A DNA stretch of 40,401 bases, taken from assembly GCA_937873205.1 (NCBI GenBank), contig CALMVO010000116.1, positions 1 through 40,401 on the forward strand. Reading direction: 5' to 3'. The notes below the pieces were generated by a model. That model saw only the letters and a list, made by a program, of their open reading frames with translations, was not told where the DNA came from and made no database searches. How positions within the stretch are numbered: the stretch's first letter is position 1; every line of letters starts with the position of its first letter. Below, piece after piece: positions 1-40,401 of the stretch. Position numbers and translations under genes: made by a program. The DNA comes from an uncultured Acetobacteraceae bacterium (lineage in GTDB: Bacteria > Pseudomonadota > Alphaproteobacteria > Acetobacterales > Acetobacteraceae).

Positions 1-20
1 GCCGAAGACCTGAATCTGAC
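1..20. repeat. Terminal 20-bp direct repeat, left copy (circular overlap)
   Basis: These 20 bases are identical to 40382-40401. This is the usual signature of a circular contig with its overlap left in place. Collapsing it gives a 40,381-bp circle, and the minus-strand frame at 38207-40401 then continues in frame into 1-156. Confidence 0.9.
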
Positions 21-156
21 CGGTGCCAAGGCTCGCAGGCGTGTTGACGAGGTGGTAGCCGTCCGCGGGCTGCGCGACAGCGTCTGGCGCGGCAAGGATC
101 ACACCGCCAGCAAGCAGCGCCGCGGCAGATGCGAGCAGAGCCGCCCGACAGGCCAC
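1..156 (-). CDS. N-terminal part of secreted tail-fibre/LamG/SGNH protein (continues at 40401)
   Basis: This is the beginning of the protein whose bulk lies at 38207-40401. On the minus strand, reading from 156 down to 1 and across the join, the frame is open and encodes a secretion signal. It starts at GTG 156-154, has a short positive start (MACR), then an Ala/Leu-rich hydrophobic core, and ends at a cleavage-like site AVA-Q followed by PADGYHLV. The GTG overlaps the TAG stop of the upstream HTH gene by one base (TAGTG), so the two genes are probably translationally coupled. The only upstream in-frame stop is TGA at 198-196, so this short stretch contains all possible starts. The internal ATG at 40360 would remove the whole signal and is a less likely start. 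Seen: open frame and signal. Inferred: export. Confidence 0.8.
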   Translation of the reverse strand, partial: MACRAALLASAAALLAGGVILAAPDAVAQPADGYHLVNTPASLGTGQIQVFG

Positions 157-353
157 TATGCAGCGACCTGGTCGGGGTGCCGCGTCGTCGAGGCGTCAAT
201 CCATGCCTGGAATCGGTCCTCCCTGATCAGGTTCTTCCGGCCGATGGTCGTGGTAGCGGGTCCAGCACCAGTCCTAATGAGCTTGCGCATCGTCACAGGA
301 TGAACGCGGGCACGCTCCGCCGCCTCTGAAACGGTCAACAGCGTCTGCTGCAT
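156..353 (-). CDS. Small HTH DNA-binding protein (MerR/AlpA/excisionase-like)
   Basis: A 65-aa protein with a helix-turn-helix of the excisionase/AlpA type: TVSEAAERARVHPVTMRKLI, followed by a wing-like GRKNLIREDRFQAWI. Such proteins act as excision factors or small repressor/activators. The ATG at 353 is chosen because GGAG stands at good spacing before it; a TTG at 365 lies upstream in frame. Its stop codon overlaps the GTG of the secreted LamG/SGNH protein, so the HTH protein heads that minus-strand block. It faces the plus-strand replication block across the 366-874 intergenic region, whose repeats could be its operators (inference). A specific role as excisionase for either plasmid recombinase is possible but not shown. 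Confidence 0.75.
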   Translation of the reverse strand: MQQTLLTVSEAAERARVHPVTMRKLIRTGAGPATTTIGRKNLIREDRFQAWIDASTTRHPDQVAA

Positions 354-1451: not shown

Positions 1452-1576
1452 TCCGCACCACTGCGCAGAACACCGCGCAATCGCTCGATGAAATGGCCGC
1501 AGAGGGCGATGGTATCGTCCGCATCTGTGGCGTGCTGTTGCATCAGGCTCAAGAGCCACCGGTGACGACCGACTAG
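1448..1576 (+). CDS. Small hypothetical protein (42 aa)
   Basis: A short frame that begins inside the stop of the preceding gene (ATGA). It encodes a soluble peptide with an acidic centre (SLDEMAAEGDGIVRICGVLL). The four-base overlap and matching codon composition support translation, but the size is small and no family is recognised. A 24-bp gap separates it from the next gene. Confidence 0.4.
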   Translation: MIRTTAQNTAQSLDEMAAEGDGIVRICGVLLHQAQEPPVTTD

Positions 1577-1600
1577 AGCAATCGCGAGGCGAGCCTGGTT

Positions 1601-16557: not shown

Positions 16558-17469
16558 GTGGCGGACGATGAACCCGTACAGGGCGACTTGCTCCGGCCCC
16601 TGCCTGCCGCCACGGCCCGCGTCATCCGCTTCTCGGCAGAGATCGCCGGCGCTGAGCCGGAACGGCCGGACTACCTGCACAGCGTGCTCTGTCAGGTCGG
16701 ACTACCTCGCTCAGCTACCACAGCGACCAAGTTCAAGCGCACCAACGGTAGCGCCTCCCTGCTGGTCGAGGCGGGCAGCCTGTGGGACGGCTCGGACTGG
16801 ATTGAGCAGCCCCTGCCCTACGGCACACGGCCCCGTCTGGCGCTCGTCTACGTCAGCTCCGAGGCTGTGCGGACCCGCCGCCCAACGGTCGAGCTAGGTA
16901 GCAGCATTCGGGACTTCCTGATCCGACTCGGTATCGACACAGGCGGTCGCGAGTATGCGACCTTCAACCGCCAGATGCGGGCGCTGGCTGCCTGCCGGAT
17001 GACCCTCGGCTTTGGAGCTTCGACGATCGACGCGAAGCCGATCAAGCAGTTCACGGCCTGGACCGACGGCGGGACCGACGCGAAGGCGCTGACGCCCGGC
17101 ACGATCGAGCTCTCACCGGAGTTCTACGCTTCCTTGGCCGAGGCTGCGGTCCCACTCGACGCCAGAGCCCTGAGCGCGCTGCAGAATAGCGCCCTTGCCC
17201 TCGACGTTTACTGCTGGCTGGCCCATCGGCTGCACCGCGTGAAGCGGATGACCGGGGAGCGGCTATCCTGGAAGAACCTCCGGGAGCAGTTCGGGCAGGA
17301 GTATGCCGACCCGAAGAACTTCAAGCGCGAGATGGAGAAGGCTCTGCGGACGGTTCGAGCCGTCTACCAGGAAGCACGAATCGAGCAGGTCGAGGGCGGT
17401 ATGGTGCTGATGCCCTCACCGCCGCCGGTGCCGAAGACGCTCATCCAAGCCCGGAAAGTCGGACGGTAG
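16558..17469 (+). CDS. repA: Plasmid replication initiator RepA (RPA type)
   Basis: A 303-aa initiator of the family annotated as plasmid-encoded RepA. The diagnostic block LPYGTRPRLALVYVSSEAVR is at about 83-102, followed by ELGSSIRDFLIRLGIDTGGR, and the winged-helix C-terminal half contains ALALDVYCWLAHRLHRVKR and LSWKNLREQFGQEY. Such proteins bind iterons and open the origin. The start is GTG 16558, with a near-perfect AAGGAGG seven bases upstream. The origin with six iterons follows immediately after the stop. It is divergent from higBA. Confidence 0.92.
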   Translation: MADDEPVQGDLLRPLPAATARVIRFSAEIAGAEPERPDYLHSVLCQVGLPRSATTATKFKRTNGSASLLVEAGSLWDGSDWIEQPLPYGTRPRLALVYVSSEAVRTRRPTVELGSSIRDFLIRLGIDTGGREYATFNRQMRALAACRMTLGFGASTIDAKPIKQFTAWTDGGTDAKALTPGTIELSPEFYASLAEAAVPLDARALSALQNSALALDVYCWLAHRLHRVKRMTGERLSWKNLREQFGQEYADPKNFKREMEKALRTVRAVYQEARIEQVEGGMVLMPSPPPVPKTLIQARKVGR

Positions 17470-20286: not shown

Positions 20287-20562
20287 TTAGCCTCCTTCCC
20301 GATCGAGATAGGCCGACAGCGCCGCCTCGATGATCCCCTGGTGCGTCATCCGCTCGCCAATCGCATCCTCCCGCGCCGCAACGAACCTACGCAGCCGGCG
20401 GTACTGCTCCGCGGTCAGGCGCAGGCTCAGGGTGTGCGCATACGCCTTAGAGGTGGTGGTCGGCGTCTGCGGCCTAGCGGGCTCGACCGGCGCCGGAGCC
20501 GGTGCCTGACCGCCCTTTGGCACCGTGAGATCGTCCAGGCTTCCCTTGGGGCGTGTCGGCAT
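20287..20562 (-). CDS. ParG-like ribbon-helix-helix partition protein
   Basis: A 91-aa protein. The N-terminal 40 residues are flexible and Pro/Thr-rich; the C-terminal part (AHTLSLRLTAEQYRRLRRFV, AAREDAIGERMTHQGIIEAA) is a ribbon-helix-helix DNA-binding domain. This is the standard architecture of ParG/ParB partners in type Ib partition systems: the mobile tail stimulates the ParA ATPase, and the folded part binds the centromere. Its ATG (20562) lies inside the end of parA in another frame, preceded by GAGGA. The 8-bp-phased arrays on both sides of the operon are its likely binding sites. Confidence 0.8.
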   Translation of the reverse strand: MPTRPKGSLDDLTVPKGGQAPAPAPVEPARPQTPTTTSKAYAHTLSLRLTAEQYRRLRRFVAAREDAIGERMTHQGIIEAALSAYLDREGG

Positions 20563-21178
20563 CGGGTCCTCGCAAGATGGATTGCACGTAGCGCCAGAGT
20601 TCGGCGCCCTCCTCGGCCGCTTTGCCGGTGAACTCGACGGCGGCCTGGCCGCTGATCGAGGCGGCGGGGAAGTCCGCCCGGAAGGTGAACTGCGCCGGCG
20701 CGACCCGGCCGAGGGCGGCGAGCTGGCGGAGCGCGCTGGCGAGCAACCGCGTCCGCGGCGGCACCTGGGACAGGACGAACGCCCATCGGGAGTGGCTCGC
20801 CAGGCTGGCCGCGATCGGTGCTGCCGCCAGCAGATCGTCCGGGGTCGGACGCACGGGCACCAGCACCACATCGGCCCAGCCGAGCAGGTCCCGGATGAAG
20901 GCAGGTTGTCCCGGGGGCGTGTCCACGACCAACAGTCCGACGCCAGCTTCAGCCAGCGCTTCGGCCCGCCGCACCGGGTCCAGCTTCACCAACACCGGGG
21001 CCGTGGCCTCGCGGCGTTGATACCAACCGGTCGTGGTGCCCTGGGGGTCCAAATCCGCCATGGCGACCTGCATGCCGGCTGAGGCCGCGGCCGCGACGGC
21101 GAGTTCCCGGGCGATGGTCGACTTGCCGCTGCCCCCCTTTGGGGTGTGCAGGACGAGAGTGTGCATGGGCGCGTCCAT
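20474..21178 (-). CDS. parA: ParA-family partition ATPase (type Ib, ParF-like)
   Basis: A 234-aa deviant-Walker ATPase. KGGSGKST at 14-21 carries the signature lysine; Walker A' is DLDPQG with Asp44; Walker B is LLVVDTPPG near 80-89. It lacks an N-terminal HTH, so it is the short ParF/type Ib form that segregates plasmids over the nucleoid. Start may be Met1 or Met5. The C-terminus beyond about 205 overlaps the ribbon-helix-helix gene and is Gly/Arg-rich. Five phased TGATGC units stand directly before the start and are the expected operator and centromere. Confidence 0.9.
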   Translation of the reverse strand: MDAPMHTLVLHTPKGGSGKSTIARELAVAAAASAGMQVAMADLDPQGTTTGWYQRREATAPVLVKLDPVRRAEALAEAGVGLLVVDTPPGQPAFIRDLLGWADVVLVPVRPTPDDLLAAAPIAASLASHSRWAFVLSQVPPRTRLLASALRQLAALGRVAPAQFTFRADFPAASISGQAAVEFTGKAAEEGAELWRYVQSILRGPDADTPQGKPGRSHGAKGRSGTGSGAGRAR

Positions 21179-22119: not shown

Positions 22120-24289
22120 GCGGTGCCCGGGACGTCCTCAGCCCGGAAGAACATGCCCGGATCTTCGAGACCGAGATCCTGCCGCGTTCGGGGCTGGATC
22201 GGCTGGCATCCCATGAGCACCCCAGGGTCGTCTTCCTCGGCGGCCAGCCGGGCGCCGGCAAGGGCGGACTGAACCGGAGCGTCGGCAGGGAACTCGGCGG
22301 TGACGTCATCACCGTCGATACCGACGAACTGCGTAGGTTCCACCCCCTTGCCGGGGAGTTCCGAGAGCAGAACCCGCTCACCTGGTCGGGCCGCACCCAC
22401 CAGGACGCGAAGGCATGGGCGGACGAGCTCGGTGCGCGTGCCATCGAAGGCCACAAGAACGTCATCTTCGACACGACGCTGAGCGACGGAAATCGGGTCT
22501 CGGAGCAGATCAAGGAGCTGTGGGCCAAGGGCTATGAGCCGGAGGTTCGGGTGGTGGCGACCCACAGGCTGGAGAGCGAGGTCGGCGTCGAGAAGCGGTT
22601 CATCGACCAATTCGACGAAGAGGGCTACGGCCAGCACGTTCCCCAGACGGTCCAAGACCATGTCTACGACAAGCTCCCTGGAAACCTCGACACGATCCGA
22701 CAACGGACCGGGGCGCGTATCCTGATCTACGACCGAGACGGGCGGCAGTGGTACGACAGCCACGAGTCTGGCGAGAGCAGAATGCCGGGCCAGGCACTCG
22801 AGGAGGCCCGTAACGCACGCATGCACGATCCGGCGGTGGTGGGCCGGACTCGGCGGGCCTATGATGAGGCGAGGTCGTGGCACGAGAACCTGCCCGAGAG
22901 CGTCGGCGCGAACCCGCATGCGTCCCCGGCCGCGAAGCAGGCGCTGCCGGCCGAGGCCGAGAAGGCGTCGGTACTGAGGGGCTGCGTGAGAACGGCGCCA
23001 AGGTGGAGGCGATTCAGGCATCCCTCGCGCGCGGCGCCGCGAGAGCCGGGCCCCTGGAAGGCGCGGGGCGCGCCGCGGGTGTCGTCGGCGTCGGCCTCAT
23101 GGCCGTCGACGCCTACCAGACCGGTAAGGAGTACGCCGTCCTCGGCGCCAAGGGCAACGCCGCCGGCGCCGACGCGCTGCTGCGCCAATACGAGGGCCGC
23201 ACCGCCGGCGGCATCCTCGGCGGGATCGGGGCCGGGGCCGCCTATGGCGCGCTCGCCGGATCGGAGACCGGTCCGGGCGCGATCGCGACCGGCATCGTGG
23301 GCGGCGTGGTCGGCGCGTTCGCCGGTGAGAAGCTCGCCAACAAGATCACCGAGTACAAGGTCGACCACCAGACCGGATCCGACGGCAGGACCTACAGCTA
23401 TGACGATGGGCAGTGGACCGGCACCGAGCGCCATATCGACTGGAAGGGTAGCTGGCTGCCGCGCCTCGCGAGCAACACGGCGGCGGCGGCGGACGGCCAG
23501 CGCCCGGTGCTGGACTACAAGCGCACCGCGGCGGTGACGGAGCTGGCGCTGGCCCATCCCCGGCAGCAGGACACCCGGAACATCACGCTCGACGGCACCG
23601 AGTGGCACGCCTCGCACGGGACATGGACCAAGCAGGTCTACGACGACAGCGTGTCGATCGACACGCTGGGCGCATTCCCGGTATCGCAGCGCCAGCCGGC
23701 AGACGCGCGCACCGCCACGACGCTCGACCGGCTCACCGCGAACCGGCAGTACAACAACGACCACTACGGCGAGGACGTCGCCAAGGCCTACGTGATGGAC
23801 CACTACGGCAGGGGGTGGAACAGGGTCGGCCCGCTGCCGGACGCGGTGGCCAGCGAGCTGCACCGGCCCAGCGAGACCAACGTCAAGGATCCCGCCACCG
23901 GCCAGTCCTGGACCGTGGACGGCCACGGTGGCTTCTCGCGTAACACCTACGTCCCCACGATGGGCGGCGTCCTCATCGCCGCTCCGGTTCCGGCCGATCC
24001 AGCGGAAACCGCGCGCCTGGACAAGGTCCGGAACGACGCGGTGCGGTCGAACGCCGCGTATGGCGCGCAGGTGATCCACGAGGCGTACAAGGAGACCCAG
24101 AACCAGGGTCGGGCCGAGGCCCAGGATCAGCACGCCGCAGCCGCAAACCTATGGACGAGCGTCAGCCAGCGTCACTTAGCGGCGCAGGAGCAGCAACGGC
24201 GGACGTCGATGCCCGACCAGCAGGCAGGACAGGCACCTGCGGCCCAGATGCCCACGGTCCAGGTTCAAGGTCTTCGGCGGGGCCTGTAG
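22116..24289 (+). CDS. Zeta-toxin kinase with long glycine-zipper C-terminal extension (frameshifted)
   Basis: Residues 1-240 are a zeta toxin: P-loop GGQPGAGKG at 42-50, then VITVDTDELRRFHP, and the lid/effector region RLESEVGVEKRFIDQFDEEG. By family the enzyme phosphorylates UDP-N-acetylglucosamine and blocks wall synthesis. The frame breaks at the G4 run 22978-22981; adding one G joins KASVLR directly to GLRENGAKVEAI in the next frame, giving about 724 aa. The extension has a glycine zipper (GGILGGIGAGAAYGALAG, GAIATGIVGGVVGAFAG) that may insert in membranes, then an acidic/aromatic domain (YNNDHYGEDVAKAYVMDHYG) and a Gln-rich tail. Such large versions resemble secreted or delivered zeta effectors. 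The frameshift could be real or a sequencing error. Confidence 0.8.
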
Positions 24290-25135: not shown

Positions 25136-25230
25136 GTGGGCTTCTTTGACGGCTTAGGCGTCTTAGGCGGGCCGATTGGCGGCGCCGGTGACGAGCCGTA
25201 GGTTGGGATCGGAACGCGGCGGCGGCTCAT
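25132..25230 (-). CDS. Proline-rich 32-aa peptide
   Basis: A short frame whose ATG overlaps the stop of the 25227 gene (ATGA) and whose TGA overlaps the next GTG. The peptide is basic and Pro-rich (PPIGPPKTPKPSKKPT at its end). Overlaps on both sides and a position in an unbroken chain support translation; the sequence itself gives no function. Confidence 0.5.
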   Translation of the reverse strand: MSRRRVPIPTYGSSPAPPIGPPKTPKPSKKPT

Positions 25231-25961
25231 GCCGCGCCCCGTTCGTCGATCGACCCCTCGACGACCCGCAGGTCTGCACGGGCCACGGCGGGCACCGCCC
25301 GAGACGTCAGCCACCAGTCCCTGTCTGCCAGGGCGTCCATGTCGCACCGCGCGGGATCACGCTGCTCCGCGACCAGGAAGCGGACGTGGTGGTCCAGACA
25401 CCCGCGGTCCAGCGCGGCCAGCTCGCCGGTCAGGCCGGCGACGTCGTCGCGCATCGGCGCGCAGATGACCACGCTCCCGTCGCTCCGGACGTTGAACGCG
25501 AACCCCCGGCTGAGGGCCCGATCGACCCACCAGTGCGCGCGGATGCCTTGCCCCCGGTCCCATAGCTGCTGGCCGTCGCGGAAGTAGCGTGCGCCGAGGT
25601 CGTCGAGGCCGGTTTCCATGTAGCTGGCGAGGAAGTCGGTCGCCCGCTGTATTGCGAGGCCGTAGGGAACGAAGATGTCCGGTTTGCCGTCCCCGTTCTC
25701 GACGGCCGCGAAGAGGTCGCAGCCCGTGGCCAGCAGGACGGCAAGCGCATCGGCGAAGCTGTCGACCGGTGAGGCGATGATCTCGTCGGTCCGATCGACC
25801 TTGAGGACGCACAGCTGGTTGTCCCGCTCCCGAACCTCCTCCGACACCCGGAGGCCCTGCGGGAACAACGTGCCGAGCGCATCCGCCTCGCGCTGCGCCT
25901 GGGCCACCTCGGCCGCCATGGCGGCGGCGGAGGGGCGGTCGATCGTTGGGTGCGGCGCCAT
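25227..25961 (-). CDS. Unknown cytosolic protein of the repeated-domain operon
   Basis: A 244-aa protein starting at ATG 25961, which shares one base with the previous stop (TGATG). Features: a helical start (AAAMAAEVAQAQREADALGT), a mixed central domain (LCVLKVDRTDEIIASPVDSF, LATGCDLFAAVENGDGKPDI) and a C-terminal domain (HWWVDRALSRGFAFNVRSDG, SVVICAPMRDDVAGL). It has no signal peptide or membrane segment and shows no relation to the repeated domain of its neighbours. No known family is recognised. Its place between exported paralogues suggests a shared function. Confidence 0.65.
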   Translation of the reverse strand: MAPHPTIDRPSAAAMAAEVAQAQREADALGTLFPQGLRVSEEVRERDNQLCVLKVDRTDEIIASPVDSFADALAVLLATGCDLFAAVENGDGKPDIFVPYGLAIQRATDFLASYMETGLDDLGARYFRDGQQLWDRGQGIRAHWWVDRALSRGFAFNVRSDGSVVICAPMRDDVAGLTGELAALDRGCLDHHVRFLVAEQRDPARCDMDALADRDWWLTSRAVPAVARADLRVVEGSIDERGAA

Positions 25962-26767
25962 CACACCAACTCCCCGCCGACCAGGTCGCGCACCAGCAGC
26001 CACGCCAGCTGCCCGTTCTTGTAGGCCTCCGGATCGCCGTTGCGCTTGATCTCCGGCGAGTAGGCGAACAGCACCTGCGCTCGCATCCGGTGCCCATCGA
26101 GCGTCCGGGCATGGAGGCCACGCATCCGCTCAAGGATCGCCTCCAACTCGGCTTCGAGGGGTTCGACTGCGCGGTCGGTCGTCTCCTCGGCCGTATGCAT
26201 GCTCGCGTGGTCGGTCGCCGTGCCAGAACCGCACGCGGCGTAGGCGGCCGTGATCTGCCGGCTCGCCTCCAGGAACCGCTCGCCCTCGGCGATCAGGACG
26301 GCGTCCGGATGTGCGACGGTCCCGGTCGCCACCATGGCCGGGACCGGTCCGAGCGCCACCGCATCGCGCAGGGCCATGTCCAGCAGCCGCCCGATGAACC
26401 CGCCGTCGAAGGAGTGCTCCCGACTCCCGTGCGGGTAGAACGGGTTGGCCGCCGCCACGACGCGCATCAGCGCCGCGACCCCGTCGTTCGTCCTGGCCGT
26501 CATCGGCTCGAGGCGGGCGAGCACGACCTCGCGTTCGTCCCATAACGGTTCCACGACGGCGGCCAGCGCCTCGTCGGAGGGATCGGTCACGGCGTCGCCC
26601 TGGGTGCGCCACGCGTGCTCGAGGAACACCAGGTGGTCGCAGAGGCCGATCAGGGTGGCGTCGGGATGCGCCGCAGCCAGGGCCACGGCCGGGACCACGG
26701 CGGCGAGGCCCACCAGCGGGAGGGCGCCGGCGGTGGTCATCAGGTGGCGGCGGGTCGGGCGGTTCAT
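25961..26767 (-). CDS. Tat-like exported protein with two copies of the repeated domain
   Basis: A 268-aa protein. The N-terminus has a twin-arginine-like signal (PTRRHLMTTAGALPLVGLAA) ending near VALAAA. Two domain copies follow: HPDATLIGLCDHLVFLEHAW (from about 33) and HPDAVLIAEGERFLEASRQI (from about 145). The second ends NGQLAWLLVRDLVGGELV, like DERLAWSLAEDLLGVEVV at the end of the 26764 protein. The ATG overlaps the previous stop (ATGA at 26764-26767). The protein is likely periplasmic and folded before export. The domain is helical and lacks obvious catalytic residues. The function is unknown. Confidence 0.7.
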   Translation of the reverse strand: MNRPTRRHLMTTAGALPLVGLAAVVPAVALAAAHPDATLIGLCDHLVFLEHAWRTQGDAVTDPSDEALAAVVEPLWDEREVVLARLEPMTARTNDGVAALMRVVAAANPFYPHGSREHSFDGGFIGRLLDMALRDAVALGPVPAMVATGTVAHPDAVLIAEGERFLEASRQITAAYAACGSGTATDHASMHTAEETTDRAVEPLEAELEAILERMRGLHARTLDGHRMRAQVLFAYSPEIKRNGDPEAYKNGQLAWLLVRDLVGGELV

Positions 26768-27276
26768 TGCACCACCTCCACGCCGAGCAGATCCTCGGCC
26801 AGCGACCATGCCAGGCGCTCGTCGGGGTCCATCGCGTCGAACTCCATCACGCCGTAGCTGCTATGGTGCAAGCGCATCTCGCGGCGGATCAGCCTCGCCT
26901 TGGCGACCATGCCCTCGCGCGTGGTGGCCGACAGCTCCAGCGCCCGGTCGATCAGTTCTTCCAGCCGATCGTCGATCGGTTCCAACGCGTCTGCGACGGC
27001 CTGGGCTTCCGCAGCAACGGCGGTGGTCCATTTGTTGGGCTCGTTCGAGACTGCCCACCAGCGCGCCTCCAGCGGCTTGCGTCGCTCTATGAGGGTGACG
27101 GCTTCCCGCTCGATGGTGAGCAGGGCGGCGTCCCCGACCACCGATGCCGGCAGCACCTCGACGGCCTGGGCACCCGGCATGACGATCGCCACCCCGGCGA
27201 TGCCGGCCAGCGCCGCCATGCTCGCATTGCCCATCATGGCGCGGCGCGTGGTAGTCCTTCTTTCAGTCTCGGACAT
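26764..27276 (-). CDS. Tat-like exported protein, single copy of the repeated domain
   Basis: A 170-aa protein. A twin-arginine-like leader (TTTRRAMMGNASMAALAGIA, ending PGAQA) precedes one domain: VGDAALLTIEREAVTLIERR, then EPIDDRLEELIDRALELSAT, ATTREGMVAKARLI-like core and DERLAWSLAEDLLGVEVVQ. ATG 27276 is used because the leader begins there; the frame extends upstream without support. It is the first gene of the overlapping chain, 173 bp after the 27450 gene. Its close partner is the two-domain protein directly downstream. Confidence 0.7.
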   Translation of the reverse strand: MSETERRTTTRRAMMGNASMAALAGIAGVAIVMPGAQAVEVLPASVVGDAALLTIEREAVTLIERRKPLEARWWAVSNEPNKWTTAVAAEAQAVADALEPIDDRLEELIDRALELSATTREGMVAKARLIRREMRLHHSSYGVMEFDAMDPDERLAWSLAEDLLGVEVVQ

Positions 27277-27449
27277 CTGATCGCAACCTCGTCTCGGGAT
27301 CAGGCGCGGGGGACGTTCCAGCGTTCCCCGCACCGACCTTGCCCGTTCTCCACGGACTCTCCCGGCAGACCGCCCGGGCGCGGATGGCTCACGTCGGCCC
27401 AGGTCCCGCGCAGGGCGGTAGCCGTGGACCGGGCGAGCAACTTCGTTTG

Positions 27450-31109: not shown

Positions 31110-31928
31110 TCAGAAGACCAGCCGGCCCCCATATTCGTCCGTTGGTAGCGGCTCCTGCCCAAGACCCGCGCGATACTCGTTAAGGCCCGCCAGCCCCCTG
31201 CGCGACAGCGCCGAGATCTGGAAAATCAGCTGCGGGCTGAACTCGACTACGGCATACAGGACGCCCAGGCTGCTGCTCGCGTTGAAGCGGTAGTTGAATT
31301 GGTCCGATAGCGGCTGCTTGGCTCGAAACAGCTCCGCGCCCATGGGCGCAAACTTGAGGATCTCCTGCAGAACCTGGAACGACATCCCGTCGGCGATGCT
31401 GTACCGGCGGGCATAGATCACGCCATCGAACCGCTCGCCGACCTCTCGATAGAACAGCGCCTTTGCCAGCTTGCGGCTAAACCGGTCGAGCACGTCGCAG
31501 GTCAGCGGTCCGAATGACATCCCGCCCCATCCTGCCCGACGCAAGATGTCCCCACGCTTGCCAAGGTTCTCCCGTAGCTGCCGCCGTATCTGGTTGCGTG
31601 ATAGGGGGATCCAGTCCTCCACGATATGCGGCTGGCTGTTCCTGAGCCCCTGCGCCTGCTTCTGGAACTCTGCCTCCTCGAGCTCGGTGCCGCGGCCACT
31701 ATCTCTGATCCGGGCCACGACCGATATGACCTGCTCATCTAGCCGACCTTCTTCATTACAGGGCGCGCAGCAGGAGAATTCATAGGTTTCCGGCCATGCC
31801 CATCCGCGGAAGATAGCGCGTGGCGGGCAGTGATCGGTGGTGGTAGCAGGGGCGCCGCAGTAGATGCACCACGGGTTCTCCGCGAGCACCTGTGCACGAC
31901 TTCGCTGGCGGTTCTTTCCTTCTCCCAC
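31110..31928 (-). CDS. HNH-endonuclease-like protein
   Basis: A protein of about 272 aa. The zinc and catalytic region reads WCIYCGAPATTTDHCPPRAI, then FSCCAPCNEEG: two CxxC pairs around a DHxxP centre, as in HNH/McrA-type nucleases (and some restriction or recombination nucleases). The long C-terminal part is helical with FSPQLIFQISALSRRGLAGL at the end. Start GTG 31928 is 7 bases after the DUF2167 stop; another GTG at 31961 overlaps that gene. It is the last gene of the minus-strand phage-like block. Whether it cuts DNA is untested. Confidence 0.65.
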   Translation of the reverse strand: MGEGKNRQRSRAQVLAENPWCIYCGAPATTTDHCPPRAIFRGWAWPETYEFSCCAPCNEEGRLDEQVISVVARIRDSGRGTELEEAEFQKQAQGLRNSQPHIVEDWIPLSRNQIRRQLRENLGKRGDILRRAGWGGMSFGPLTCDVLDRFSRKLAKALFYREVGERFDGVIYARRYSIADGMSFQVLQEILKFAPMGAELFRAKQPLSDQFNYRFNASSSLGVLYAVVEFSPQLIFQISALSRRGLAGLNEYRAGLGQEPLPTDEYGGRLVF

Positions 31929-31935
31929 TACACGC

Positions 31936-32829
31936 TCACGCTTCCGGTACACCTCCGGCACTTGACGCAGCGGATGTTTTCGTTGGCTTCTTTCTCCGCA
32001 CCTTCCGCCAAAGCCATACGAAGGGCAGTACCGCCAGCCACACAAGCTTCTTGGCAAATACTGCTAAGCCTACTAAGGCGCCCACCTTGACCAGCTTCAC
32101 ACCCAGCACGCCAGCGACGAGGCCAGCGATCCCGTAGGTGGCGGCGTGGTCGGTGCTCGGCACGTAGTCGCCGTATGTCGCGCCTGGTACGAACTGGTGG
32201 GCGTTGGCGACCAGAAGCAATTCGGCCATCGCATCGGCCGGCGCTGCGGTGTTGTCAATGAGAACGATACGCTCGAAACCATAGCGCCCGAGCTTCAATA
32301 CGGCAGCGTTGAAGATGCGGCCGCCACCATCCCTTGTGCCGTTAAAGGACCACAGCACTGCGTGGGTATCACGGTTGTAAGTCGGCGCCTGCTCCCACCC
32401 CAAAACGTGCAGCGCCGGCATCCTGGCGGCGGCTCTTTTCTGGTTTCCAACTTCAGTTGCAGCCTTGATCTGCTGAATCATCTCGTCAGGGTGGACGTTG
32501 GACCAGTCGCCACCATTGATGAAGCCTGACGGTTGATACGAATAGACGACCTCTGCTCCCGTCTTCGTATTGACGGCATCGGCTTCAATCAAAGGATCAT
32601 CATCGGCATCCCCAATAACTCGCATCTGCTGTGCCGATACTCCGGTTACAGCGACAAAATCCGGCATAAGGCCAATCTGCGAATGAGAGGAGTTCAGAGC
32701 TAGACCGTTGACCGGCTGCCAGGGCAACGCCCGTATTTCTGCCAAAGCTTGCTGCGACAGTTCCGCCCGCGCCAGGGTAGGCACCAAACACGTGAGGCAC
32801 CCCGCCGCTAGAACCCTCACCAGCAACAC
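31936..32829 (-). CDS. DUF2167 membrane protein
   Basis: A 297-aa protein: signal peptide (LAAGCLTCLVPTLARA-E), an extracytoplasmic domain typical of DUF2167 (VLGWEQAPTYNRDTHAVLWS, VLKLGRYGFERIVLIDNTAA, VPGATYGDYVPSTDHAATYG), then a C-terminal hydrophobic segment (IAGLVAGVLGVKLVKVGALV, LVWLAVLPFVWLW) and a Lys/Arg-rich tail. Proteins of this family are envelope-anchored with unknown activity. It lies 134 bp after the polyvalent protein and 7 bp before the HNH gene, so co-transcription is likely. Confidence 0.8.
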   Translation of the reverse strand: MLLVRVLAAGCLTCLVPTLARAELSQQALAEIRALPWQPVNGLALNSSHSQIGLMPDFVAVTGVSAQQMRVIGDADDDPLIEADAVNTKTGAEVVYSYQPSGFINGGDWSNVHPDEMIQQIKAATEVGNQKRAAARMPALHVLGWEQAPTYNRDTHAVLWSFNGTRDGGGRIFNAAVLKLGRYGFERIVLIDNTAAPADAMAELLLVANAHQFVPGATYGDYVPSTDHAATYGIAGLVAGVLGVKLVKVGALVGLAVFAKKLVWLAVLPFVWLWRKVRRKKPTKTSAASSAGGVPEA

Positions 32830-32963
32830 ACCACAACCCCTGACACCTGTATATCGGGATCGTAACTATAGCCTGCCGCTGATAGAGGCGAGTCCTTTCT
32901 TACCCATCAATTTGCCCTCTGTGTCGGACCCGCTGCCTGCGTCGCCTGCACTACCGCAAGCCC

Positions 32964-35900
32964 CTACAGCGCCGCCAGCTGGTTCAGCCGCCCCATCGGC
33001 GCATTCGAGCCTAGCCGCGTGCCGGACGGCGCCGGCTGCGTCTTCTGCCCTGACGTGCTGGACTGACCCGCCACAGCCGCCTGCGCCGCCTTCATCACCC
33101 CGATGCGACCGAGCTGCGTCGCCAGCGTCCCGCCGATCGACTTCTCGTTCTTCGGACCGATCCGCGCCAGCAGGACGTTCATCAGCCCAGGATTCAGCAT
33201 CGCCTCGGTCACAAGGTCGTCCACCTTCTCGATGTGCGCGGCCTTCATGCCGTGGACGATGCTGTGCATCGAGCTCGCCAGCGTCTTCGAGATGTAGGCG
33301 CCGGCCGCGGCTCCCTCGACGCCCCCGAGCTTGTAGCCAACGCCACCGCCGATCGCGCCGATGACGTGTTCTCCCAGGTGCCCGACCAAGTTCCCCAACA
33401 GGCTGTGCCCACCGTGCGCCTTGCCGGCCGCTGCCTTGGCCCCGTCAGCCGAGACGCCCATCGTCTGCAGCGCGTCGGCGATGTGCTGGAACGAAGCCAT
33501 TTCATTCGGCGAGAACAGATGTCGGAGCGCGGTGCCGTTGTCCCTGACGAACCGCTGCATGGCGGCGGCCTGGACCTTCCGCTCCCCGTTCGGTCCGGCC
33601 AAGGACTGCGATAGCAGCCGCTTTTGGATGTGCTCCACTACCGCCCGCTTGAGGCCATCCCGGGCGGCCGGATCATTGGCCGTCAGATCCGCCAGGGACT
33701 TCATGTCCCCCGCCCGGTTCGGCGAGGCCAGCACCTGCCCGACGCGGTCCGCAGGCTCCCCACCGCCGAGGAAGAACCGAGCCGCACTGGTCTGGTAGGA
33801 CTTCACCGCCCCGACATGGGCGGCCGAGGCGGCATCCACAGCATCCTGCGCGCCAGCAATGGTCCGGAACTTCGCCGCCAGCCCCGGCACCGCGGACAGC
33901 GCCGGCCCGTATGCCTGCACGAACCGATCATGCGCGCCGCGGTCGACCTCGCCGCCCTTGATGACCTTCGACTGGTAGAGGTGCGACATCACGTCCGACA
34001 CCGCATCGTGCGCCTTGGCCGTGTTCCCGGCACTGGTTAGCATCGCTGCGACCCGCTCCCGACCAGCCGCACTAGGTCGCACCGCCTGCATGGCGACGTC
34101 GCTATCCGACCATCCGGGCTTAAGGGGATGAGCCGCATCGAGCGCCTGGCGCTGAGCCTGGAGGGCGTCGAGCTCGCGGCTGGCACCGGCGGCCGTTGCG
34201 AACCGCTTGCCCACCGCCGGCGCGGCCTTGGTCAAGACATCGAACGCCTCCCGGTGCTGCGCCTGCCACTGCGCGAACTTGGTCGGATCGACCGTCCCGT
34301 CATCCCGGCCGGCCGCGCGCCGGAGGCTGAACGCCACGTACTGGCTCAGATGCTCGGGGTCGATCCCGGCGCGCACCGCCGCCTGTACCCGCTCCGCAGC
34401 CTTGGGACCGCCGGAGAATAGCTGCGCCGGCACCTGGCTGTCGGCGAGCTTGAACCCGCCGCGTCCGCCGAGGCGATCCTCGAGGACGGACCCCACGCCG
34501 GGCGCCCGGGCAAAGGTCTCCTTGTTCTCGCGATAGCCGGCATTGGCGGTCCGCAGCTGCGCAGCGTCGGCGGCCGTGAAGTTAGGCGTTAGCGCGGGGG
34601 CTTCGGCACCAGGGAGAGCGTCGGCCGGGTAGCGGGCTCGGCCGAGGCGGTTGCCGCTGCCTCCGCTTCCGCCTGATGACGCTTGCCATCCCGCACCAGG
34701 GACAGGTTGCCGCTCTGCACCCCGGCCCGCACCATTCCCTGGCCCAACAGGTGCATCCGGAGCAAATGCCCTCGTTTCTGCTCCGCCTGCTCGTCCATAT
34801 CGTGCCCCTGCTTCCGCGAGGATCTGATCCGATCCCAGGTTCTCACCAAACAACCGCGCCTCGGTCGACTGCTCGGCCGCCACGCGCGCATAGTGCCGAA
34901 GCGTCTCGGCCATCTCGCTCGCGCTGGCTCGCCCCGATAGATTGGGACCATAGGCAGCATGTAGCAGCCCCACCGCTTCGGGCGACATCCGCGAGAATGC
35001 GTCGCCCTGCTGTATCACGTCCCCCAGCGGAATGCGCTGGTCCCGCGCCACCCGCAGCGCCGCTAGAGCCTGGCTGACGTGCGGCGCCAGATCGACGCTC
35101 GGGTCCACCTCGCCGCGCTCGATCCCCATGCGCAGCCGGGCCATGTCCGGCGCCGCCTGTTCCAACGCCGACGCCAGAACCCGCGTCTTAGGGTCGCCCG
35201 TCTCGGCCAGGGCATCGGTCAGGCTCCGATCACCATAGGCGCGCGCCACCAGCGCGTTCCGCATCCGCTGCGCGCCGTCGCGGGACAACTGCCCGTCTGC
35301 CGTGGCGAAGGCGCCCTGTTCCTGCGGTGAAACTACCTGGCGCGCGAACGACCTGACCATGTCCCGGTTCGCCGGCTCGGCCACGTCGCCGCCGGCGTGC
35401 TGGTCGAGCAGACCCGGGGTGATCCGCTGCGCATCCGTCCGGGCCACCTCACCAGCGGATGGCGTCAGCACGCTCGACCCGTTCGCCTCACGGGTGAAGG
35501 CGACCCGCTGTTCAGGCGTCATGGCGCTGGTGCGCCGACGGATCAGCACGGGCTGCGGGATGCCGGTGGTGTCGTGCCCCTGCGACGTCAGGAACTGCCG
35601 ATATCCTGCGGCCTGCTGGCCGTTCTGCGCATAGGCCCGGCGGATGGCGATGGTGCGTGCGTTGCCCGACTCCACAACGTTGTCGGGGCCGACGATCGGC
35701 GCCCCGTCCGCGGCCGCGGTGCTGGCCCCCAACCGCTCCGGCTGGAGCCGGTTCGCCATGCTGGTGATCTGGGCTTGGCTTGCCGCCCGATCGCGGTCCC
35801 GCGGTTGGAGCTGCGCCGGATAAGCCGGGTTGGGCGTCACATCGTTCGTGTGCGAGGTCACGAGATCGGGTGCGTTCGCCACCTCGTAGCGCACGCCGAC

Positions 35901-38105
35901 TTGGCCGCCGGACGGGGTGTAAACGGTGGTGCCAACGCCCGGCGTCGCGGTGGCGGTTCCGGTCGCCGGCGCGGCTTTTGAAGCCGGATCGGCCGCGTTC
36001 TCAATCGCTGCCGCCTTGCTGTCCGTCACCCCGTCGAGCAGCTGCCCGATCCGGCGCACCGCCTGCGGGTCGCCGCCCGGACCGCGCTGGTTGGCCTGGA
36101 TCGTCTTCGCGGCAGACTCCAGAGCCTGGAGTTCGCCCAGCGTCTGCACCTGCGGGTAGCTCTGCACCAAGGCATGGAGCCGCGCTTCGTCGGCGCCCAT
36201 CGGGATCGCGCTGGCAGGCATGGTGCTGGTGATCTGAGACGACGCAGCCTTGAGCGGGCCGACGTCCAGGGCCTTCGTGCCCTCGACGGCAAGCTGCTGG
36301 TAGATCGCCTGGGTAGGCGCGAGGTGCGCGGCCTGCGCGTCCTGCAGCTGCTGGCGGAACTGGCTGCCATAGTCCTGCATCGCCGTGGCCGGCCCATCCG
36401 GTCCGACCGGGACCTGGCCGCCTAGCGCCGCCGTCGCATCCTGCGCACCCTGCTGGGCCGCCTGCACCTGCGCGTCAGCCTGCTGGATAGCGGGCGCGCG
36501 AGCTTGATCGACTTGGCCGCGTAGGGTGGCGCCCGCCTGCTCGGGCGTCGCATCGGTGGTCGCCGGGAGCGCCGACACCGCCGCATCCCGCCCAGCTTGC
36601 GCGCCCGCCACGCCAGCTTGTCCGGTCTGATCGATCGTTCCGAGCTGCGCCTGCACGGCAGGCGTTACCGCATCGCTGGAGGCCGCCGCTGGTGCGGTGC
36701 TGTCGATCGCGCCGACGATCGCGCTGTTCTGCTGGTTCGCCCTGTCCTGGAACGGCTGGGGCGCACCTGCGCGTTGGGCCTGCTCGAGCGCCATTTGCCC
36801 GGGATCAGCCGTCACCTGCGCGCTGGTCGGCTGGAACCCCGGCACCGGCGCCGGTGTCGCGAGATGCTGGCCCAAGGCGGCCTGCGCAGCCGGGAGGTCC
36901 GTCGTGTTGGCCTTCAGGGCCTGCGCTGCGGCCGTGGCCTGGCCTTCCGTCACCGGAGCCGAGACCGCAGCACCGGTCGCATCGGTCAGGGGTGCCTGCG
37001 ATCCCCTGCCGACCCCTTGATAGACCGCGCGTCCGAGCTGCATGACCGGGCGCGCGGCCATCAACGCCGCGGTGCCACCAGCGCCGAGGGCGCCACCGAC
37101 AACCGCTCCCGTCTCCGCACCCTTGAGATGATCCCAAAACCCGCCATCCGCGTCGGCTCCGCCCGCAGCCGCACCCACAGCAGCGTTGGTCGCGGCACCC
37201 TTGACGATCGGCGATAGGACCGACGCGCCGCCCGGGAGCCGTGCCAGTGCGTTCTCCACCACACCGCCAACAGCATCGGTGACGGGTGCGGCGATCCCAT
37301 AGAGCTTGTTCAGCCCGGTCGCAGCCCCGAAGGCTTCGGGTAGGCCCGCGACGCTACCGGTCACCAGCCCAGCGGCGCCGAGCATATGCCCTGGGATCGT
37401 GGCGCCGTAGCTCTCGCCAGCATCGCGCGCACGTTCCGCAGCCAGATTGTCGGCATACCGTCCGGCAAGGGTCGGCGCCGCGCTACCGTCTGCGGTGAAG
37501 GGTTGCAGGAGCGCATAGCTGCCGGCCGCCACCTTATCGCCCAGCCCAAAAGTGGCATCTTGAATGGCGGTGTGGATCACGTCCGACAGGTAGCTGGTCT
37601 TAGCAGGCTGGACGTTCGGGTTCGCGGCGGGCGTTGTCGGAGCCGAGGCCGTAACCGGCACCGGGCTCATCCCCAGCGCGGCCGGATCGAGCGTTGATGT
37701 GGCAGGTGATGCGCCCGCCGCACCCACTGGTGTCATGCCGAGGGCGGCCGGGTCAAACGATGGAGCGCCCCCTGTCGACGGTGGTGCATCTAGCGTGAAA
37801 CCAGATGGCAATTTGGCGGCGGCGGCTGCCGCTGGTGCTGCATCGACCGTGAAGCCGGAAGGCAACTGAGGCGAAGGCAGCGCGCCCGGCAGGGCTATCC
37901 GTGACGCAGGGCCACCAGCAGCCGAGGTCGGAACGTCATCTATTGATGGCTGCGGAACGGATTTTCTTTCGAAAGGAAGCGGGGGCGCTGGTGTGGCGAT
38001 CGGCGCATTTTGCCACCAGCTGTCATCCTGAGGAGCGGCAGGCGGGACGGAAACTGCTGCGGGTGCGACGATGGGGGAGGCATCCCACCAGTTTGAGTTA
38101 GGCAT
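32964..38105 (-). CDS. Phage-type large polyvalent / ejection-like protein with ParB-DdrB domain
   Basis: A 1713-aa protein. The N-terminus has imperfect repeats: WWDASP/WWQNAP, LPSGFTVDA/LPSGFTLDA and DPAALGMTP/DPAALGMSP, as in structural or injected phage proteins. A hydrophobic Gly/Ala-rich region spans about 230-350, followed by a long Ala/Gln-rich helix section (about 380-580). At about 790-900, GPDNVVESGNARTIAIRRAY and TPEQRVAFTREANGSSVLTP match the DdrB-like ParB fold of polyvalent proteins. The C-terminal third is helical and ends with a Gly-rich membrane-like patch (GEHVIGAIGGGVGYKLGG). Such proteins enter the recipient with DNA. No capsid or tail-tube genes accompany it here. Confidence 0.75.
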   Translation of the reverse strand: MPNSNWWDASPIVAPAAVSVPPAAPQDDSWWQNAPIATPAPPLPFERKSVPQPSIDDVPTSAAGGPASRIALPGALPSPQLPSGFTVDAAPAAAAAAKLPSGFTLDAPPSTGGAPSFDPAALGMTPVGAAGASPATSTLDPAALGMSPVPVTASAPTTPAANPNVQPAKTSYLSDVIHTAIQDATFGLGDKVAAGSYALLQPFTADGSAAPTLAGRYADNLAAERARDAGESYGATIPGHMLGAAGLVTGSVAGLPEAFGAATGLNKLYGIAAPVTDAVGGVVENALARLPGGASVLSPIVKGAATNAAVGAAAGGADADGGFWDHLKGAETGAVVGGALGAGGTAALMAARPVMQLGRAVYQGVGRGSQAPLTDATGAAVSAPVTEGQATAAAQALKANTTDLPAAQAALGQHLATPAPVPGFQPTSAQVTADPGQMALEQAQRAGAPQPFQDRANQQNSAIVGAIDSTAPAAASSDAVTPAVQAQLGTIDQTGQAGVAGAQAGRDAAVSALPATTDATPEQAGATLRGQVDQARAPAIQQADAQVQAAQQGAQDATAALGGQVPVGPDGPATAMQDYGSQFRQQLQDAQAAHLAPTQAIYQQLAVEGTKALDVGPLKAASSQITSTMPASAIPMGADEARLHALVQSYPQVQTLGELQALESAAKTIQANQRGPGGDPQAVRRIGQLLDGVTDSKAAAIENAADPASKAAPATGTATATPGVGTTVYTPSGGQVGVRYEVANAPDLVTSHTNDVTPNPAYPAQLQPRDRDRAASQAQITSMANRLQPERLGASTAAADGAPIVGPDNVVESGNARTIAIRRAYAQNGQQAAGYRQFLTSQGHDTTGIPQPVLIRRRTSAMTPEQRVAFTREANGSSVLTPSAGEVARTDAQRITPGLLDQHAGGDVAEPANRDMVRSFARQVVSPQEQGAFATADGQLSRDGAQRMRNALVARAYGDRSLTDALAETGDPKTRVLASALEQAAPDMARLRMGIERGEVDPSVDLAPHVSQALAALRVARDQRIPLGDVIQQGDAFSRMSPEAVGLLHAAYGPNLSGRASASEMAETLRHYARVAAEQSTEARLFGENLGSDQILAEAGARYGRAGGAETRAFAPDAPVGPGNGAGRGAERQPVPGAGWQASSGGSGGSGNRLGRARYPADALPGAEAPALTPNFTAADAAQLRTANAGYRENKETFARAPGVGSVLEDRLGGRGGFKLADSQVPAQLFSGGPKAAERVQAAVRAGIDPEHLSQYVAFSLRRAAGRDDGTVDPTKFAQWQAQHREAFDVLTKAAPAVGKRFATAAGASRELDALQAQRQALDAAHPLKPGWSDSDVAMQAVRPSAAGRERVAAMLTSAGNTAKAHDAVSDVMSHLYQSKVIKGGEVDRGAHDRFVQAYGPALSAVPGLAAKFRTIAGAQDAVDAASAAHVGAVKSYQTSAARFFLGGGEPADRVGQVLASPNRAGDMKSLADLTANDPAARDGLKRAVVEHIQKRLLSQSLAGPNGERKVQAAAMQRFVRDNGTALRHLFSPNEMASFQHIADALQTMGVSADGAKAAAGKAHGGHSLLGNLVGHLGEHVIGAIGGGVGYKLGGVEGAAAGAYISKTLASSMHSIVHGMKAAHIEKVDDLVTEAMLNPGLMNVLLARIGPKNEKSIGGTLATQLGRIGVMKAAQAAVAGQSSTSGQKTQPAPSGTRLGSNAPMGRLNQLAAL
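34589..34798 (-). CDS. Candidate overlapping 69-aa gene inside the polyvalent protein
   Basis: In a different minus-strand frame, ATG 34798 to TAA 34589 encodes a coherent helical peptide (MDEQAEQKRGHLLRMHLLGQ, MVRAGVQSGNLSLVRDGKRH). By hand count about 84% of its codons end in G or C, as expected for this plasmid, while the long gene's own frame has roughly 37% over the first 46 codons of the same stretch. GGGG stands before its ATG. It may be a true overprinted gene, or the long frame may contain two compensating indels here. Confidence 0.45.
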   Translation of the reverse strand: MDEQAEQKRGHLLRMHLLGQGMVRAGVQSGNLSLVRDGKRHQAEAEAAATASAEPATRPTLSLVPKPPR

Positions 38106-38206
38106 CAGATCCTCCCTTGCAAGCTATGCGGGTTAGCGCTGAGCCTAACCGGGCTGACAAGCCATCGGTGCTTGCTGCAGTGGTCCGCAAGATCATTGGC
38201 GTGCTG

Positions 38207-40401
38207 CTACGAAGAACTCACGATGCCGCAGGTGCCGGCGGCGTCGGAGCCGCGCGTGACGATGAAGTTCGCGGTCTTGCCGGCGGGCAGCGAGAAGCTC
38301 GCCGTGCCGCCGTTCATGGTGTCGGTGGGGCCGACGTTGGGCTCGGTGCCGGGCATGATGGTGTCGGCCGCGGTGCCGGCGTTCTTCACCGTCGCCAGGA
38401 CCTCGCCCTGCATCTGGCCGCCGCAGGGCAGCAGGGCGAGGGTCGCCGTGCTGCCGGTCAGCAGGATGGTGTTGCCTGCGTCGGTGAGCTTCTGGGTCCC
38501 GCTGGTCGCGCTGATCGTGTCCGGGCTCGCACCGTTGCGGACGTTGCCGAGGTAGGCGATCAGCTCGGCATAGTCCTGGCCGATGAAGGCGTGCCCGCAC
38601 TGCGTCGCATGCGTGGAGTCCCCCTGGAACGTGGGTCCGGTGGTGCTGCCCAGCGTGCAGTTGTTCGTGCTGGTCTGCGCCGACGCTCCGTCCGCACCCC
38701 ATCGCGGGTCGTTCACCGAGTCGAAGTAGGCGTCGAAGTAGCGCAGCGCGAACTGCCGGCGCAGCGGGTTGGTGACGTCCTTGACCGACACGTCGTAGTA
38801 GCCGTTGCTGCCGGCCGAGGAGAACTTCATGCCCAGGATGGTGGTCCAGCCGTGGGCGTGGAATGCCGCCGCGCAGGCGCCGAGCGTGCCGATCGTGCGA
38901 TAGGACGCGGCCGTGACACCGGCCGCGTTGGACAGGCTGGCATCGGGCCACGGGTTGACGTTGGCCTCCGAGGTGCCGTTCTCCTCGAACAGGACATACT
39001 TCGGGCCCGTCACGTTGACGCCAAGGGCGGCGGCTTGCAAGGCGCAGCCCCCCGCCGAGCGCGCCGCCGTGATGGTGTAGCTGCTGGCGCTGTCGCTGCC
39101 GTCCGTGTCGGCAGTCCAGGTCTGGCCCGTCGCGGTGGACAGGACGCCTGCCGCGACGGCCGTGTATTTCATCGAGCCGGGGCTCGCCAACCCATGGCCC
39201 CAGGTGTTGCTCTCGCCGAGGGACAGCAGGTAGGGGCCATCCAGCGTCAGGCCATAGCCAGGTGACGGGTGCGCGCCTTTGTAGGCCGCCAGGCGCTTCC
39301 ACGCGTCATAGTCCTGCGCGATCTGCTGCGCGGTCAGCGTCGTGGTGCTGTAGGACGCGCCGTAGATTGTGCCCTGGAAGCCTGCCGTGGCATCGGTGTC
39401 GCCATAGGTGCCGAGCATGTCACCGCCGAGCTCCCAGTATCCCCCCGAGGTCGTCGGCGCCGAGGAGGAACCAACCTGGTCGAACGGCGTCTGCTGGACC
39501 CCGTCCAGCCACATGCTCCGAAGACCAGTGGTCGGGCTGATCTGCATGACCGCGACGTGGAAGCCGTTGTCGATCGACCCCGTGGTGCCGACCGCAGTGG
39601 GATCACCACTCATGTAGCTGCTCAGGACGGTGTTGGCGTACCCCATCCAGGCGTTGTTGTTGCCGGAGTAGCCCGAGGCGAACCACATGGCGGCGGCGGG
39701 GATGGCGCCATGATAGCCGGTCAGCACCGAGTTGCCGGTCGCGGTGTTGCTCGCCGTCAGGCTGTTCTTCGTGACGACGGCCGATCCGAACGCCACCTCA
39801 ATCGTCTGGATGCCCTGCACGGCAGCGGGCAAGGCCAGGAAGCTCGTGCCGGCCGCGAATTGCAGGCCGCAATCCGACGACCAGGTCGGTGCCGTGACGG
39901 TGCTCGCCCAGTTCGACGGCGCGGCGATGGCGATTGGCAGCGTGTTGCCCTTGCCCGACCGGTCGGCGGTGCTGGTGCCCTGGCACTCCAGCATCAGGTA
40001 GCGGGCCTGCAGGCCGGTGTCAGGGGCGAAGAGGTAGTTGCCGTTGTTGGCCAGCTGAGCCGACAGGCTGCCCGTCTGCGCGACCACGCCAGCCACGGTG
40101 CCGCCATCGGCCACGGTCCCGGCGGTCGAGCCGAACGGGATCTGAGCCGCGGGCACCAGCTTGGAACCGTTCAAGCCGGCAACCCCGGAAGCGGCGCCGA
40201 TCTCGGTCGTCGGGATGCCGCCCAGGTTGCCGAGCGCCGCCGTCGCGCTGGCCACGTCCGACAGGTTGTTGGACTTCTGCAGGGCTCCGGAAATCTGGGT
40301 AGCTTGGGTGCTGGTGACGAGGCCGCTGACCAGCTGAGACGCCAGCTTTCCCGCAATCATGGTCGTTACGTCGATCGAACCGCCGAAGACCTGAATCTGA
40401 C
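38207..40401 (-). CDS. Secreted tail-fibre-like / LamG / SGNH-hydrolase protein (N-terminus continues at 1-156)
   Basis: With its start at 156 across the join this protein has about 776 aa. After the signal peptide there is a tail-fibre-like segment (LQKSNNLSDVASATAALGNL), then a LamG/concanavalin-like domain at about 175-420 (LMLECQGTSTADRSGKGNTL, MWLDGVQQTPFDQVG). An SGNH hydrolase domain follows: LSLGESNTWG near 441 with the nucleophile Ser, FEENGTSEAN in place of block III, and DSTHATQCGHAFIGQDYAEL near 638 with the catalytic Asp/His. A beta-rich C-terminal domain (about 690-776) ends the protein. It should bind and de-esterify a polysaccharide at the cell surface. A classical phage fibre has no signal peptide, which makes the combination unusual. 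Confidence 0.8.
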   Translation of the reverse strand, partial: QIQVFGGSIDVTTMIAGKLASQLVSGLVTSTQATQISGALQKSNNLSDVASATAALGNLGGIPTTEIGAASGVAGLNGSKLVPAAQIPFGSTAGTVADGGTVAGVVAQTGSLSAQLANNGNYLFAPDTGLQARYLMLECQGTSTADRSGKGNTLPIAIAAPSNWASTVTAPTWSSDCGLQFAAGTSFLALPAAVQGIQTIEVAFGSAVVTKNSLTASNTATGNSVLTGYHGAIPAAAMWFASGYSGNNNAWMGYANTVLSSYMSGDPTAVGTTGSIDNGFHVAVMQISPTTGLRSMWLDGVQQTPFDQVGSSSAPTTSGGYWELGGDMLGTYGDTDATAGFQGTIYGASYSTTTLTAQQIAQDYDAWKRLAAYKGAHPSPGYGLTLDGPYLLSLGESNTWGHGLASPGSMKYTAVAAGVLSTATGQTWTADTDGSDSASSYTITAARSAGGCALQAAALGVNVTGPKYVLFEENGTSEANVNPWPDASLSNAAGVTAASYRTIGTLGACAAAFHAHGWTTILGMKFSSAGSNGYYDVSVKDVTNPLRRQFALRYFDAYFDSVNDPRWGADGASAQTSTNNCTLGSTTGPTFQGDSTHATQCGHAFIGQDYAELIAYLGNVRNGASPDTISATSGTQKLTDAGNTILLTGSTATLALLPCGGQMQGEVLATVKNAGTAADTIMPGTEPNVGPTDTMNGGTASFSLPAGKTANFIVTRGSDAAGTCGIVSSS
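40382..40401. repeat. Terminal 20-bp direct repeat, right copy (circular overlap)
   Basis: Identical to positions 1-20; see that entry. The secreted SGNH protein frame passes through it without interruption. Confidence 0.9.

Follow-up and report, generated by a model that had tools for sequence, protein, structure and literature searches.

The window analysed here, the whole 40,401-nt contig CALMVO010000116.1 (C116) from the 3.73-Mb, 155-contig genome of an uncultured Acetobacteraceae bacterium, carries a row of five minus-strand genes that includes a fibre-like protein and a phage-type polyvalent protein. The ends of C116 share a 20-bp terminal repeat, with which the circle closes at 40,381 bp. 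Because the ends are shared and the fibre frame is unbroken across the join, we treated C116 as a closed replicon of that size; an assembly artefact was considered and dropped, given this uninterrupted frame at the join and the RepA and ParA encoded on board. The row begins with an HTH_17 (helix-turn-helix, excisionase/AlpA-like) regulator at 156..353 on the minus strand (65 aa from its ATG; Pfam PF12728, 5.7e-11; phrog_66 excisionase/regulator, 1.1e-7), whose longest open reading frame begins at TTG 365. It continues with a 776-aa fibre-like protein on the same strand, which runs from 1..156, the 5′ end with the signal peptide, through the circle join into 38207..40401. Next come the 1713-aa polyvalent protein (32964..38105, minus strand; Pfam PF18763, 1.2e-34; phrog_5143, 4.9e-66), a DUF2167 protein with an N-terminal signal recognised by eye (31936..32829, minus strand; Pfam PF09935, 1.3e-37), and an HNH-type nuclease with a likely GTG start, also placed by eye (31110..31928, minus strand; PHROG HNH, 1.1e-8; in Pfam only HNH_5 at E 0.23, under the cut-off). 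The five genes are thus as the original prediction described them, on a circular plasmid. Its domain labels were borne out by Pfam for HTH_17, ddrB-ParB and DUF2167 and by PHROG for HNH; the LamG and SGNH labels it gave the fibre found no profile match.

The ddrB-ParB domain occupies residues 733-859 of the polyvalent protein, scores 119.5 bits against a curated cut-off of 27.6, and is the only Pfam domain recognised there; an N-terminal stretch (residues 163-365) matches phrog_5880, a family of unknown function, at 1.2e-7. Single-sequence scans of viral and genome contigs with this protein confirmed no relative; alignment-based scans found them. The five nearest (L061, L062, L063, L065 and L066) are all viral contigs with 45-52% identity over the ParB region, and a 65-row tree of that region places the window protein with them at 100/99 support. 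Similarity reaches well outside the domain in these five and in L064 (paired with L062), and more weakly in L082/L083, L098/L100 and L103. The long alignments show 42% identity over 885 aa (L061), 37% over 830 (L062) and 39% over 754 (L063), and together span residues 415 (L061) to 1652 (L063). The original prediction had named homologous loci always embedded in full phage genomes as an outcome that would tell against it, and for the polyvalent gene this is largely what we found.

The best-annotated relative, L062, has a P22-like tail region in which a head-closure gene (phrog_578, 1.2e-104), a DNA ejection gene (phrog_598, 3.7e-17) and a transglycosylase/endolysin-type gene precede the polyvalent gene, and an S74 tail fibre, a signal-bearing 1114-aa spike and a GH108 lysin follow it, with small genes interspersed. 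In L066 a Collar fibre precedes a signal-bearing protein of the GDSL type (lipase phrog_6102, 5e-18; Pfam Lipase_GDSL_2, 1.2e-6, under the cut-off), and L061 encodes an SU10-type adaptor, a virion structural protein, an SLT protein and a gp53-like fibre. Profile-supported tail genes therefore stand beside the polyvalent gene in three of the five relatives. The L065 contig ends inside the polyvalent gene, and its phage nature was judged by gene layout alone. L063 (positions 1-7611 of a 9.3-kb contig) begins inside the gene; its polyvalent relative bears an InPase domain, and a resolvase lies downstream. A scan of four downstream frames recognised the resolvase but no phage gene, and L063 alone among these relatives might be a carrier without a capsid. 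In L061, L062 and L066 the gene belongs to the phage late genes, whereas on the plasmid it does not. As the original prediction had stated, the plasmid has no capsid, portal, terminase or tube gene among the 31 of its 47 genes, plus two alternative frames, that we scanned with Pfam and/or PHROGs, the other 16 being at most 174 aa or opposite a scanned frame. Given the ddrB-ParB homology and no other virion gene found there, the polyvalent protein is a family homologue outside its usual setting.

Matches in phage records numbered 35, including DdrB of P1 and an Alcaligenes phage Piluca protein annotated as epsilon15 gp16-like; these resemble the plasmid protein in the ddrB-ParB domain and ~350 aa around it (34.1% and 37.6% identity, respectively), but its N- and C-terminal parts lie outside the match at E 1e-5, and no other virion genes were found with it. 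The N-terminal part matched nothing in phage or plasmid records, and the C-terminal part, searched in 385 genomes of the class, matched its own genome and one borderline case (9.4e-4). The P22-type ejection proteins gp7, gp16 and gp20, as outlined in the excerpted text of PMC4992974, invite comparison in that the L062 homologue follows the phrog_598 ejection and transglycosylase-type genes; the plasmid protein is far larger, has a ParB domain and is likened to them by gene position, not by gp16 sequence. Among public plasmids the ParB region occurs in 604 records (493 from Escherichia), with matches that cover about one fifth of the query (residues 735-1091) and never 80% of it; many of these are presumably P1-like phage-plasmids. 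The best plasmid match, from Acinetobacter, lies within a very large polyvalent gene, around which none of 25 features is annotated as a virion gene and most are hypothetical. Within the family the ParB region was found in the window's own genome and in 4 of 149 others, one at just 3.9e-4. By eye, one such gene (G010) sits inside an apparently whole prophage and another match (G240) in a phage-like row of genes. A third genome (G143; locus L022, 4118-13812) has a ddrB-ParB/PBECR1 protein adjoining an integrase-like gene and a DUF7146/Toprim primase; no capsid gene was seen by eye in ~40 kb, and this element may be a prophage remnant or satellite-like.

The fibre-like protein starts at a GTG codon with MACRAALLASAAALLAGGVILAAPDAVA|QPADG, a Sec-type start (n-region charge, hydrophobic core and A-x-A site) that passes our simple heuristic rule, which is not a trained predictor and which 99 of 1000 shuffles of this N-terminus pass too. 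Its stalk repeats are of the phage-fibre type and resemble phage tail fibres. No family matched the protein in Pfam, PHROGs or NCBIfam, two pieces of it gave no Pfam match at E<=10, and phmmer against the PDB returned just two matches, at E 0.82 and 1.4. The SGNH assignment of the head was not confirmed, hhalign giving a probability of 0.2% against phage SGNH proteins and 0.1% for a LamG-like piece run as a control against the same alignment; nor was the LamG label. GES, NGTSE and DSTH blocks do occur in SGNH order, by eye alone, and with no library recognising the head and the hhalign comparison failing, LamG/SGNH is a by-eye label. AlphaFold2, run without relatives, returned no usable fold for the head (pLDDT 33). 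Searches with the fibre found no match in the plasmid collection, the phage collection or the viral-contig scan, and of 250 genomes of the order its own was the sole match (0 of 249 others).

That match lies in the chromosome, on contig C78, where the fibre stalk has a counterpart with 68% identity over 63 aa. The C78 locus (L014, G000:C78, 5791-12596) encodes a signal-bearing fibre with a beta-helix head, a SleB-type lysin, a lipoprotein-like gene and a signal-bearing small protein; the fibre gene is interrupted by 100 N and the flanks look like housekeeping genes, and the locus is likely a prophage fibre/lysis remnant. Its beta-helix head aligns with the signal-bearing L062 spike (24% over 595 aa, 1.7e-17) and its lysin with L066 (42% over 110 aa). 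Taken together, the shared stalk, the head-to-spike match and the lysin match suggest that the fibre and the polyvalent protein trace to the same phages. Since no relative of the fibre head was found, phage descent of the fibre is argued through the stalk and this C78 chain.

Sec-type starts also accumulate near the polyvalent gene in the related phages. Of 64 distinct loci entered, 13 without a callable polyvalent frame were dropped; in the remaining 51, such starts were called for 21 of 161 genes in the 8 kb that follow the polyvalent gene, for 4 of 236 upstream and for 12 of 207 others (downstream versus upstream, Fisher 7e-6 with kinship of the loci ignored). The S74 fibre of L062 and the Collar fibre of L066, both adjoining the polyvalent gene, are without a signal and are followed by Sec-signal proteins. 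Runs of such proteins (SGNH, glycine-rich and spike-like) also stand past the ejection genes in L080, L093, L095 and L096, with conserved signal-bearing N-terminal parts and differing heads; L080 and L093 are one lineage, their 603-aa proteins being 93% identical. Related SGNH heads in one Rhizobium and one Mesorhizobium phage, among five phage records matched, lack a signal of this kind by eye. Assembly of receptor-binding proteins normally takes place in the cytoplasm. The target proteins of phage diversity-generating retroelements are without signal peptides according to excerpts of the Hankyphage paper. Among the papers listed by literature searches, no title or abstract opening gave an account of exported phage fibres, nor a description of this arrangement for phage-plasmids or ejection proteins of the bacterial family or for fibre-bearing satellites.

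Whether the five genes form one unit is doubtful, judging by their sequences. The gaps between them are -1 bp (the HTH stop and the fibre GTG overlap by one base), 101, 134 and ~7 bp, the last depending on an HNH start chosen by eye, and a promoter and terminator scan gave no promoter-like site and five terminator-like ones against 4.2 by chance. Third-position G+C runs, in gene order, 0.76, 0.89, 0.79, 0.66 and 0.73, an unevenness that suits separate arrivals. Across 101 ddrB-ParB loci (domain-alignment scans gave 21 in genome contigs and 412 in viral contigs, of which 80 were kept; flanks of at most 10 kb, many shorter), only the polyvalent protein was matched at E 1e-4 and no other called window protein was. 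Block DNA matched four of five genomes of the genus, in stretches of at most 75 bases beyond its own plasmid and the C78 stalk. The five-gene order, whose recurrence on other plasmids the original prediction had proposed as a check, was therefore seen in none of these loci, and the fibre is absent from the plasmid and phage collections; conserved nowhere that we looked, the order gives no support to an undescribed five-gene apparatus, an outcome that the original prediction had itself named as telling against it. The DUF2167 gene is found in its own and one other of 100 family genomes, in the latter with no further window protein match in its neighbourhood, and in three plasmid records. The HNH protein has relatives in seven plasmid records, with other neighbours in both of those examined (phage-plasmid p5 and a repC plasmid). 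This analysis found no tie of either gene to the fibre or the polyvalent gene, and both are probably separate cargo. Expression of the fibre is probably under the control of the HTH protein.

The remainder of the replicon looks like a plasmid. A RepA_C replication initiator is encoded at 16558..17469 on the plus strand (Pfam, 1.3e-17); its relatives fall in 900 plasmid records, the top one at 68.7% from Roseomonas mucosa, and a viral-contig scan with RepA confirmed none. A ParA-like partition ATPase lies at 20474..21178 on the minus strand (Pfam CbiA, 6.8e-10), and the replicon also carries genes for a tyrosine integrase, a resolvase, a zeta toxin and a DUF7146/Toprim primase.

We consider it probable, from sequence comparison, that the fibre and polyvalent genes stem from the tail/ejection module of a short-tailed phage, as a captured fragment or a leftover, and sit on an ordinary RepA plasmid beside unrelated cargo, and that the fibre is likely exported. 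Of the original prediction, phage descent stands for the polyvalent gene and, by way of the stalk, also for the fibre, as does the idea of a relic or captured phage module; a new apparatus does not. Several observations weigh against this reading. The fibre lies upstream of the polyvalent gene on the plasmid but downstream in the phages, and no relative of its head was found. The polyvalent gene is an unbroken frame of 1713 codons, and a relic in decay would have no need to keep it open. The ParB region alone is also common on plasmids, in the 604 records mentioned, which speaks against a pure phage link, and the excerpted text of Iyer 2017 notes cases of DdrB-ParB outside a phage context. As for export, 15 of the 21 downstream signals come from three lineages (L062, L066 and L080/L093), some of them in small proteins of doubtful kind, and across seven proteins 2-24% of shuffled N-termini pass the rule, so single signal calls are weak. 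Finally, none of 30 viral stalk relatives has a Sec start by eye, some of the starts being uncertain, so the stalk and the signal are not necessarily linked.

Phage-plasmids such as the P1 group and Roseomonas mucosa p5 likewise join plasmid replication and phage genes in one replicon, and the window could be a former phage-plasmid that lost its head and packaging genes. The integrase, the resolvase and the excisionase-like HTH would fit such a past, as would p5, which comes from the same family as the best RepA relatives and has a terminase, a portal, a capsid and an HNH relative. However, a phage-plasmid is a replicating plasmid equipped with genes for the virion and for packaging, and here we found replication and partition genes only: capsid, portal, terminase and tail tube are missing, and no further virion gene turned up, among the scanned genes. 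RepA, moreover, has its relatives on plasmids and none confirmed in viral contigs, and p5 is of another phage type, with tape-measure and tail-tube genes; we regard this history as unlikely. About as improbable, in our judgement, is that the fibre is a plasmid-encoded exported adhesin or esterase and has no link to the polyvalent protein next to it. Signal-type starts on both the plasmid and the chromosomal fibres speak for it, as does WceF of Pantoea stewartii, a signal-bearing biofilm enzyme of phage-tailspike-like design which, in the excerpts of PMC7949094, demonstrates that such proteins can be bacterial. WceF differs in being a beta-helix enzyme of an exopolysaccharide cluster with a twin-arginine (Tat) signal, as those excerpts describe it, whereas the plasmid fibre head fits no class; no enzymatic domain was confirmed in it, and a homologue occurs in none of the 249 other genomes of the order.

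Two further readings concern transfer of the plasmid. Were the replicon a satellite, the fibre and ejection protein would enter helper virions and the plasmid would be carried and injected with its own pilot protein. The intact polyvalent frame, its phage-like N-terminal stretch and the plasmid's own replication genes suit this, and the G143 element likewise combines a DUF7146/Toprim primase and an integrase with a ddrB-ParB protein and shows no capsid gene by eye. Yet satellites pair packaging or capsid-redirecting genes with a helper, and no packaging gene was found here, nor any P22-type head-closure gene (phrog_578) of a helper in its own genome, other helper types not having been searched; the fibre, too, bears an export signal and no recognised virion-attachment domain, which leaves this very unlikely. 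We give still less credence to a conjugation-type polyvalent protein that a type IV system would move along with the plasmid. A 1317-aa primase does match the C-terminal part of the TraI model, at 63.6 bits against a cut-off of 929.85, and a 314-aa protein (window 12925-13869, no family match) looks by eye like the C-terminus of a relaxase-helicase, a possible mobilisation remnant. Against this, no relaxase or type IV secretion system family was found among the scanned plasmid proteins, and in the excerpted text of Iyer 2017 DdrB-ParB counts, among polyvalent proteins, as confined to phages.

If the pair is indeed a piece of a phage tail/ejection module, the polyvalent protein of the parent phage would have travelled in the head and been injected together with the DNA, much as a processed form of DdrB is built into the P1 head (Iyer 2017, in the excerpted text), and its ParB/sulfiredoxin-type domain would act on nucleotides or nucleic acid in the new host. 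As the plasmid has no head, its copy is probably idle or active only in the producing cell. The fibre would leave through Sec, and its head, possibly an esterase, might bind or trim surface polysaccharide, which could alter phage adsorption or the matrix. A broader proposal, which we hold to be rather unlikely, is that a group of short-tailed phages exports, besides its signal-less virion fibre, a second fibre-like set (SGNH hydrolases and beta-helix spikes) through Sec. Released by infected or lysogenic cells, this set would act on surface or matrix glycans and would be captured by plasmids and chromosomes, here with an ejection protein able to serve a helper virion or mating plasmid as an injected effector. 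As a system the five-gene set is ordinary, an instance of mobile-element mosaicism; what is notable is the occurrence of Sec-signal fibre-like proteins near ejection genes in three phage lineages and also on this plasmid and its host chromosome. Exported fibre-like proteins in podoviruses are a lead worth following: were export real, phages would be dosing the cell exterior with surface-modifying enzymes, a testable route to superinfection exclusion or matrix removal.

Some minor observations concern p5 and the remaining plasmid genes. Although terminase, portal, capsid and tail genes are annotated on p5 (L030, NZ_CP147878.1), it has been typed simply as a non-mobilizable plasmid. At window 22116-24289 the zeta-toxin kinase frame overlaps a 470-aa frame with a weak glycine-zipper match, which may represent two genes or one gene with a frame break. 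Three neighbouring minus-strand genes at 25227-27333 have no family match above the cut-off, and two of them begin, by eye, with Tat-like signals.

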